From positions 2,976,001-3,040,000 of the forward strand of contig LR134390.1 of NCBI GenBank assembly GCA_900637705.1: DNA of 64,000 nucleotides. The letters run 5' to 3'. Source of the DNA: Fusobacterium varium. GTDB lineage: Bacteria > Fusobacteriota > Fusobacteriia > Fusobacteriales > Fusobacteriaceae. Every line of letters begins with the position of its first letter. Position 1 is the first letter of the stretch. Under the pieces are notes generated by a model. The model had not been told where the DNA came from. It worked only from the letters and a program-made list of their open reading frames with translations, and did not search any database. Below are positions 48,010 to 50,674 of this stretch, piece after piece. Position numbers and translations under genes: made by a program.

Positions 48010-49407
48010 ATGCTTGAAAGCTATATTGAATTAATAAAAATGATAGATAATTCCTTTGATGGAGTAATGGTTGTAGATGAAAATTTAATAATAAGGTATT
48101 GTAAATACTTTTCTGCTTCTGGACTTGGAAGTGTTGATGTAAAAACAGCTATTGGAAAAACTCCATTTGATATTTTTGCTAATATTACAAAAGAAACTTC
48201 TACCTTCTATAGAGCAGTAAAATATGGAGAAACTTTTCTTAATAATACACAGGTAATTCTTTACAGCAATGGAAAAAAAGAACCAATAATTGATAGCACT
48301 ATTCCTATCATTATAAATGGTAAAATCATAGGAGCTGTAAACACAGTACGATTTGTCAGCAATTTTAAAAAAAATAACTTCACAAATCATTCAAATATAA
48401 TAGCTCCATGTTTTAACGATCTTTACACAATTGATGATATAATTGGAACTTCTGAAGAAATACTTTCTTTAAAAAATAAGATATCTAAAGTTTCAAAGAC
48501 AGATTCAAATGTATTTATCTATGGAGAAACTGGAACAGGAAAAGAGATGGTAGCCCAGTCTATTCATAGCAACAGCGATAGAAAAAATAAAATATTTATT
48601 TCACAAAATTGCGCTGCTATACCTGATAACCTTTTAGAAAGTATTCTTTTTGGAACTACAAAGGGAAGCTATACAGATGCAATCAATAGACCTGGAATTT
48701 TTGAAATGGCACATGGAGGTACAATTTTCCTTGATGAAATAAATTCTATGAATCTTAATATGCAGGCAAAGCTATTAAGAATAATAGAAGACAAAAAAAT
48801 AACAAGAATAGGTGGAATAGAAACAAAGGAAGTTGATGTACGTATTATTGCTGCAATCAATGAAATTCCTGAAATTTCTATGACCGAAAAAAGAATTCGT
48901 CCAGATCTTTTTTACAGATTATCCAGTGTGCAGATAAAAACACCTTCATTAGCTGAAAGAAATGAAGATATTGAAGAGCTCGCTCAATTTTTCATTGAAT
49001 TTTATAACAAAAAAATGAATAAAGATATTAAAAATATTTCAAAAGATGTTTTAAAAATTTTCTATGGTTATACATGGCCTGGAAATGTGAGAGAACTAAA
49101 AAATGTTATTGAAACTGCTTTTAATTTTTCTATTTCCAAAACTATTGAGCTTTCTGATATTCCAGAATATATAAAAAATTACAAAAAGGAAAATAATCAT
49201 TTCAAATGCTCTATTTCTAATAATGAATATCCATATAAAGATATATCTCTCAGTATAGCACTTGAAAACTTTGAAAAAGATTATATATTGAAAGCTTCAA
49301 AAAATACACTATCTTTTTCTGAACTAGCTGATGCTCTCAAAATATCAAAACAACTTCTAAACCATAAAATTAAGAAATATGATTTGAGAAAATATATTAA
49401 TTATTAA
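48010..49407 (+). CDS. Sigma-54-dependent transcriptional activator with PAS sensor domain
   Basis: Bacterial enhancer-binding protein. In the 465 residues a PAS-like sensor domain (about 1-120), an AAA+ domain (about 145-375) with Walker A GETGTGKE (172-179) and Walker B GGTIFLDE (236-243), and a Fis-type helix-turn-helix (about 415-465, FSELADALKISKQLLNHKI) are clear. The sigma-54-contacting GAFTGA loop reads GSYTDA (219-224). ATG follows AAGGGGGGATAAA. It is divergent from the amidohydrolase-brnQ operon and is the natural candidate to activate its -24/-12 promoter. Confidence 0.92.
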   Translation: MLESYIELIKMIDNSFDGVMVVDENLIIRYCKYFSASGLGSVDVKTAIGKTPFDIFANITKETSTFYRAVKYGETFLNNTQVILYSNGKKEPIIDSTIPIIINGKIIGAVNTVRFVSNFKKNNFTNHSNIIAPCFNDLYTIDDIIGTSEEILSLKNKISKVSKTDSNVFIYGETGTGKEMVAQSIHSNSDRKNKIFISQNCAAIPDNLLESILFGTTKGSYTDAINRPGIFEMAHGGTIFLDEINSMNLNMQAKLLRIIEDKKITRIGGIETKEVDVRIIAAINEIPEISMTEKRIRPDLFYRLSSVQIKTPSLAERNEDIEELAQFFIEFYNKKMNKDIKNISKDVLKIFYGYTWPGNVRELKNVIETAFNFSISKTIELSDIPEYIKNYKKENNHFKCSISNNEYPYKDISLSIALENFEKDYILKASKNTLSFSELADALKISKQLLNHKIKKYDLRKYINY

Positions 49408-49490: not shown

Positions 49491-50186
49491 TTAAAAATTA
49501 AATCTATACCCTACTGAAAGTGTTATTCTTGAATAATCTAAATCTTTTTTAATTCTTTTTCCATCTACCTCAGCTTTCATTTCAGCTCTATTTACTTTAT
49601 ACATTAAATCTACTACAAAGTTATTATACTCTGCTCCTGCACCAATTCCATAATATAATCCATTTTTCATTTTTACAGAAATTTTCTTATCTTCAAAATA
49701 ATCATATGTTGCATCTGAACCCCTAAAAGTATATTTAGCATCTCCATTATCACTATTAAAAGAATATCCTAAATCAGCTTTTAAATATGGCTTAATATTT
49801 CCTTCTACTGGAAAGTTATACTTAGCTGTTACATATAGAGGAACAGATTTAAAACCTGGAATTTCATATTTTTCATATCCTGTGCCAACAGCACCTCCAT
49901 CTCCTTCAAATTCTCCACTTTTTTTTATAGACTTTGGATCCCCATGATCTTGGTAAGATAATCCAAGTCCCAATTCAAAATTAGGATAAACTTCTCTCAT
50001 TACTTCCACTGTCAGTTCATAACCAAAGTCATCTCCATCATCCTTATTTAATTTTTTTCCTGCATATTTTACTTCATCAAATCTTTGAAGCATATCTGCC
50101 CCTGTTTTTAAATATACATTTGTTCCCTCTGCTGCCAAACTTACACATGATAATGCTGCTAGTCCTAATAAAACTTTTTTAAACAT
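49491..50186 (-). CDS. Outer-membrane beta-barrel protein
   Basis: Secreted porin-like or adhesion-type protein. The 231 residues begin with a signal peptide (MFKKVLLGLAALSCVSLAAEG, cleavage likely after residue 19). Alternating amphipathic strands follow (NFELGLGLSYQDHG, YNFPVEGNIKPYLKADLGYSF, YYGIGAGAEYNNFVVDLMYKV) and the chain ends VGYRFNF with a C-terminal Phe, the barrel-assembly signal. Size suggests an 8-10-stranded barrel. It has its own transcript; an inverted repeat lies 75-290 bases upstream. Ligand unknown. Confidence 0.88.
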   Translation of the reverse strand: MFKKVLLGLAALSCVSLAAEGTNVYLKTGADMLQRFDEVKYAGKKLNKDDGDDFGYELTVEVMREVYPNFELGLGLSYQDHGDPKSIKKSGEFEGDGGAVGTGYEKYEIPGFKSVPLYVTAKYNFPVEGNIKPYLKADLGYSFNSDNGDAKYTFRGSDATYDYFEDKKISVKMKNGLYYGIGAGAEYNNFVVDLMYKVNRAEMKAEVDGKRIKKDLDYSRITLSVGYRFNF

Positions 50187-50261: not shown

Positions 50262-50475
50262 GTTCTCTTTTATGTATAAATGCGAACATTTTGATCTTTA
50301 TTTTCTTCTATAAAATATAGAATTAAAGATATATATAAAGAATTTTAAAATAAAACAATTATAAATTCAAATTGATTTATTGAAGATTTTATGATATAAG
50401 TAAGTGTAGGATTAGATGAGATTTTAGTGGATTTTTTTCATAAAGTTCTGTTCGCATTTATACATAAACAAGAAC
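50262..50475. repeat. Inverted pair of 26-bp palindromic sites upstream of the outer-membrane protein gene
   Basis: TTTATGTATAAATGCGAACA (50269-50288) recurs exactly as its reverse complement at 50449-50468. Each copy belongs to a 26-bp imperfect palindrome, GTTC...TTTATGTATAAA...GAAC (50262-50287 and 50450-50475), 188 bp apart centre to centre. They could be two operators for one regulator or the ends of an invertible DNA segment. Outside them, the 520-base gap 50187-50706 holds two hairpins (50516-50538, 50572-50616) and the rpsR terminator, but no gene. Confidence 0.7.
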
Positions 50476-50515
50476 TCTTAATATTTTTTTCAATTATATA
50501 ATTTAATAAAAAAAG

Positions 50516-50538
50516 ACCAACTGGTAGCTTCAGTTGGT
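50516..50538. terminator. Orphan terminator-like hairpin
   Basis: ACCAACTG (50516-50523) pairs with CAGTTGGT (50531-50538); A-run at left, T-rich at right. No gene ends here, so it may stop stray transcription or belong to an unrecognised small RNA. Confidence 0.6.
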
Positions 50539-50674
50539 TTTAATTTTATATATTATTTTATTTTTATATAAAATATAGTTTTATTTTTATTTTTTACTCA
50601 TTTATAAAACTATATTAGTTGAGCAATAAGAATGTTGAATTTTATTATTTCTCCTTATCTAAGTAAAAGAAAAA

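Follow-up and report, generated by a model that had tools for sequence, protein, structure and literature searches.

Putative invertible promoters with a shared site family upstream of autotransporter and outer-membrane protein genes in Fusobacterium varium

Invertible promoters, switches acting at multiple loci and control of an autotransporter by tyrosine recombinases (UpaE, PMC6083910) are already known kinds of system. The Mpi recombinase of Bacteroides fragilis has been cited as a global switch (PMC7241687, PMC11868660). This enzyme belongs to the serine recombinases, and its targets are capsule promoters. In Clostridioides difficile, the Cdi2 element measures 174 bp and has 19-bp imperfect repeats, some elements are flipped by one recombinase, and the reference genome is OFF at pdcB (PMC9286219, PMC7446863). 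No report of such inversion in Fusobacterium was found in the open-licence literature searched; the survey of Jiang et al. (2019) lay outside this search, and a prior listing of some elements is not excluded. The text of a study of Akkermansia invertons (PMC11892184) does not mention Fusobacterium.

F. varium and F. ulcerans possess about 32–44 autotransporters (PMC5720691), and the regulation of so many of them has lacked a clear explanation. The paper describing F. varium Fv113-g1 reports 44 autotransporters, two of them significantly raised in D-MEM and six with relatively high expression; its text mentions neither inversion nor promoters.

The window analyzed here is a 64,000-nucleotide stretch of F. 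varium DNA located within one 3.30-Mb contig (genome G000); the relatives compared are G008, G009 and G010. An earlier sequence-only reading had described a perfect 20-bp inverted repeat, with copies about 160 bp apart, upstream of an outer-membrane protein gene at 49491–50186, each copy being a 26-bp imperfect palindrome, and had noted that the window encodes no recombinase. All of these claims held. The 20-bp sequence TTTATGTATAAATGCGAACA occupies 50269–50288 (+) and its exact inverted copy 50449–50468 (−), with 160 bp separating the two; the palindromes span 50262–50287 and 50450–50475; the gene product matches a Pfam outer-membrane family; and no recombinase gene lies in the window, the candidates being located in other parts of the genome. 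With up to three mismatches allowed, TTTATGTATAAATGCGAACA has only these two copies in the window, versus 0.01 expected by chance. The pair represents inverted sites bounding a short segment, as an inverton requires. The features of the locus, with their predicted roles, are as follows:

49491–50186, − strand: controlled gene, encoding a 231-aa beta-barrel outer-membrane protein (Pfam OMP_b-brl, PF13505, E=7e-11)
50262–50287, + strand: proximal recombination site (gene side), GTTCTCTTTT-ATGTAT-AAATGCGAAC, with a 14/14 match to the genome-wide site GTTCNNNTTTNNNNNNAAANNNGAAC
50272–50277, + strand: 6-bp core ATGTAT of the proximal site, the predicted crossover region
50288–50449, no strand assigned: 162-bp putative invertible segment between the sites; similar segments lie in opposite orientations at paralogous loci of G008 and G009
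50372–50400, + strand: sigma70-type promoter, TTGATT (50372–50377), 17 bp, extended −10 TGA-TATAAG (50392–50400); a sequence match, not measured
50450–50475, − strand: distal recombination site, reading GTTCTTGTTT-ATGTAT-AAATGCGAAC on the − strand
50460–50465, − strand: core of the distal site (6 bp), which reads ATGTAT on the − strand and is thus an inverted copy of the proximal core
50513–50541, + strand: bidirectional intrinsic terminator past the distal site (3 terminators found vs 0.0 in shuffles)

The outer-membrane protein gene is adjoined by a gene at 48010–49407 for a probable sigma-54-type activator (named by eye), which is convergent with it and divergent from amidohydrolase and transporter genes.

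Each site comprises 26 bp, with two palindromic arms of about 10 bp and a 6-bp core between them. When the two sites of a pair are compared in inverted orientation, positions 11–16 of the 26 agree fully in 74/75 pairs and in 33/33 sequence clusters; with partners shuffled, the number matched averaged 6.6 and peaked at 15 over 20,000 trials. Both the sites and this matching are shown directly by the sequences. The within-pair identity is limited to these six positions, the neighboring arm positions being at the background of unrelated loci. Taken as written, the distal sites show twelve distinct cores, and in this genome the cores match in 22 of the 23 pairs. At the outer-membrane protein locus, the core is ATGTAT in G000, GTGTAT and AGGTAT in G010, and GTATAT in both G008 and G009; these diverged cores match inside their own pair every time. 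Because the cores vary among loci yet match within pairs, we read the sites as tyrosine-recombinase crossover sites rather than operators. The criterion for such sites, inverted arms around a 6–8 bp overlap identical between partners, is met. Palindromic arms and a short core identical between partners are requirements of tyrosine recombinases; regulators and transposon ends have no such requirement.

A serine invertase had been suspected from the GT/CT centre of the 26-bp site and was dropped, since the matching covers 6 bp. Hin/Mpi-like sites would call for a 2-bp overlap and for a genome that encodes a small serine invertase, and neither applies: the sole serine recombinase of the genome is a large protein of 450 aa adjoining an antirepressor-like gene, and is probably of prophage type. 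The only pair with mismatched cores, C1:1564473/1564624 of G000, combines a GT-type with a CT-type core. It is predicted to be unable to flip and is likely a hybrid of neighboring loci.

The sequence-only reading had proposed looking for further copies of the palindrome in the genome; when searched for, the site was found to recur across it. With up to three mismatches, the arm has 37 matches in G000 (1 for a reversed control pattern), and the strict palindrome GTTCNNNTTTATNNATAAANNNGAAC occurs at 43 places, the control matching none. Most of the G000 sites pair in inverted orientation 142–196 bp apart; this genome has 23 such pairs, and 75 were collected across G000, G008, G009 and G010. Most pairs are located directly upstream of large genes whose products have a signal-peptide region in common and carry an autotransporter beta-domain; the other target genes encode the outer-membrane protein and HU/IHF-like, Wzz-like and MBOAT-like proteins, the last two identified by visual inspection of the sequence. 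Sites are present in 4/61 genomes of the family, and a plasmid search for further switch copies gave no match.

Pairs ahead of Wzz-like or MBOAT-like genes are found at C1:885563 in G000, at C1:165899, 271343 and 2372032 in G008, and at C1:1096384 in G010; given their position, polysaccharide modification might also be switched. Three solo sites of G000 (C1:595782, 1840157 and 2105540) have fused outer halves and no promoter segment, which looks as if it may have been deleted between paired sites.

As assembled, the window promoter is directed away from the outer-membrane protein gene and at the terminator, an OFF state; the promoter and its direction are shown at the level of sequence. A generic promoter scan missed it, as the scan demands T at the last −10 position. 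The stronger argument for this promoter is its conservation at the four loci of the relatives. Among the segments in general, 91% carry a near-consensus promoter scoring at least 10, versus 14% of shuffled segments; judged by sequence only, the segments thus fulfil the inverton criterion of an internal promoter able to face the gene. We infer that the terminator at 50513–50541 would halt both transcripts from the outward promoter and readthrough of the rpsF/rpsR operon. Outward terminators past the distal site occur in only 15/75 loci (0.2 expected) and are therefore no general part of the switches.

By the score rule, the promoter points away from the gene at 40/43 autotransporter loci, towards it at one, and is unclear at two. 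The gene side and class of each locus were taken from a simple script, and a few assignments may be wrong. All five outer-membrane protein loci (own genome, G008, G009 and two in G010) have the promoter directed away from the gene, so that the window locus has a single orientation across its five copies. In this genome, every scorable autotransporter and outer-membrane protein switch is OFF. The switch of the HU/IHF-like gene, unlike those of autotransporters, faces its gene in 4/4 cases (G000 C1:3056156, G008 1388331, G009 2467943 and G010 719361). HU/IHF-like proteins help inversion in other systems.

Inversion is shown between paralogues of the relatives. In G008, the interiors of loci 2279891 and 2099442 align with a score of 7 as found and 121 with one of them inverted, their flanks being colinear (scores 67 and 96); after inverting, the alignment is unbroken through both sites. 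In G009, the interiors of 1641174 and 958543 score −1.5 as found and 66.5 inverted, with a left flank of 29.5 and a right flank that is weak over the 120 bp used but shows homology when a longer region is compared. The evidence is weaker for a third locus, G009 3783353 (57 vs 88). Inverted interiors with colinear flanks indicate that the switch has been inverted at its sites in the course of evolution. Of these inverted loci, G008 2099442 is the sole autotransporter locus with its promoter towards the gene, and G009 958543 is unclear (promoter score 10 towards, 9.5 away). The 151-bp family of this genome has one orientation throughout; a reading in which no copy is ever inverted was overturned by the G008 and G009 paralogues. 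Both orientations thus occur between paralogues of G008 and G009, the window locus itself showing only one, and flipping within a culture is inferred from sequence without reads.

The candidate enzyme is a 198-aa tyrosine recombinase (type A) encoded intact at C1:358180–358773 of G000 (PF00589, E=4e-22). It possesses all of the catalytic residues (R, K, HxxR, H, Y) and corresponds to a FimB/FimE-like catalytic domain of about 200 aa. Recombinases of 198 aa number one in G000, two each in G008 and G009, and three chromosomal ones plus plasmid relatives in G010. Homologs at 75% identity or more (75–100%) occur in 4/61 genomes of the family, and these are precisely the site-bearing ones. This co-occurrence is shown; that the enzyme flips the sites is inferred from it and from the enzyme type. 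Its identity to FimB/FimE is about 20% over short stretches (E 0.004–0.005), and it is nearer to Xer models. Two types of recombinase, A and B, are distinguished; type B is intact in G008, G009 and G010. Within 10.5 kb around the candidate gene there is no site pair of its own, and the gene is not beside the window switch. Inverted repeats around this gene and around homologs of about 50% identity likewise included no switch-like pair.

The type B gene of G000 (C1:1140660–1141195) is broken by stops and frameshifts. Close homologs of the candidate also occur on plasmids, where they may have other roles. Recombinases about 50–57% identical to it are encoded in genomes G016, G017, G028, G047, G051 and G003 and on Fusobacterium/Cetobacterium plasmids, these genomes lacking the site. 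A homolog search of a wider genome contig collection gave one distant clostridial match, the genus being apparently absent from that collection. A conserved 189-aa recombinase (C1:1408158–1408616), which adjoins an HU gene and has related genes in most members of the genus, is unlikely to be the enzyme, as it occurs in members without sites.

We propose that the FimB/FimE-sized recombinase would bind the arms of 50262–50287 and 50450–50475 and recombine the two sites at their identical cores, flipping the 162-bp segment. In the assembled OFF state, the promoter would read into the terminator, away from the outer-membrane protein gene; after a flip, its −10 element would lie at 50337–50342 (−), leaving about 144 nt before the start codon and giving the ON state. 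The same site would work at 22 or more other loci here, mostly autotransporters, the window being one switch of a genome-wide system. The phase-variable invertible promoter suggested by the sequence-only reading is strongly supported by the matched cores, the internal promoter, the inverted paralogues and a matching recombinase. A multi-locus phase-variation system of invertible promoters is very likely (probability about 0.9), although flipping, the enzyme and the effect on expression are inferred from sequence alone.

The alternative offered by the sequence-only reading was that of paired operators, in which a dimeric regulator bound to two palindromes loops the DNA without any flip. Every site is a good palindrome, the spacing is conserved inside families (151 bp in many), and almost all copies share one orientation. 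However, a regulator has no need for a locus-varying 6-bp core to match in each pair, inverted paralogues with colinear flanks remain unexplained, and families differ in spacing (141–233 bp); we consider this alternative very unlikely without strictly excluding it. A terminal-repeat origin, with miniature transposons (MITEs) lying upstream of surface genes by chance, would account for multi-copy short elements bearing terminal inverted repeats. Nevertheless, in four genomes the elements occupy the same position at orthologous loci, with interiors 70–76% diverged, the interiors differ among gene families, the repeats are themselves palindromic with a pairwise matched core, and visual inspection of the window copy revealed no target duplication, which leaves this origin highly unlikely. 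Pairing of the repeats within RNA or single-stranded DNA (a transcript or cruciform structure) is suggested by the complementary cores of the two sites. It is highly unlikely as well: the outer arm positions 5–7 match at 0.36–0.64 among cluster representatives, versus 0.33–0.54 expected, no better than unrelated loci, and an inter-site stem would not need each site to be palindromic.

A different kind of objection is that these are old sites frozen OFF in this strain after loss of the relevant recombinase, which cannot be dismissed. The type B recombinase is broken here and intact in the three relatives, all scorable autotransporter and outer-membrane protein switches here are OFF, and three sites have no segment. 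Against this, the type A recombinase is intact with every catalytic residue, and the matching of cores in 22/23 pairs here suggests ongoing exchange.

If the invertible-promoter reading is true, shared and mostly OFF promoter switches would explain the apparent silence of most autotransporters in culture, and reference genomes and bulk RNA data would understate the surface proteins that a population can display. A candidate enzyme and a site are thereby named. In a bolder reading, for and against which we would give equal odds, one recombinase family is the master control of the autotransporter repertoire of the F. varium/F. ulcerans group; in each genome it would govern, through a single site type, more than 20 promoters of surface genes, with an inherent bias that holds nearly all of them OFF, so that few autotransporters are displayed at a time.

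Among known systems, E. coli fimS similarly has a promoter on a short invertible segment, tyrosine recombinases of about 198–200 aa consisting of the catalytic domain only (FimB/FimE), an OFF-biased orientation (here, in assemblies) and IHF/HU-like proteins, here encoded nearby. However, identity to FimB/FimE is barely detectable at about 20%, and fimS is one locus with its recombinase genes beside it, whereas one site type here serves more than 20 loci. In ipuS of the E. coli autotransporter UpaE (PMC6083910), tyrosine recombinases likewise invert a promoter that precedes an autotransporter gene, but at a single locus with ipuA/ipuB adjoining; here one site family is common to many autotransporters. 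The Mpi system resembles the proposed one in that one recombinase acts on many surface-gene promoters genome-wide, and differs in enzyme class, the matched 6-bp core of the present sites being consistent with a tyrosine recombinase. The RecV switches of C. difficile (PMC9286219, PMC7446863) are also several similar-sized invertible elements upstream of surface or signaling genes; R20291 has seven, compared with one common site family and more than 20 autotransporters here. Finally, as in inverton groups of gut bacteria such as Akkermansia (PMC11892184), one repeat motif is shared near surface genes.
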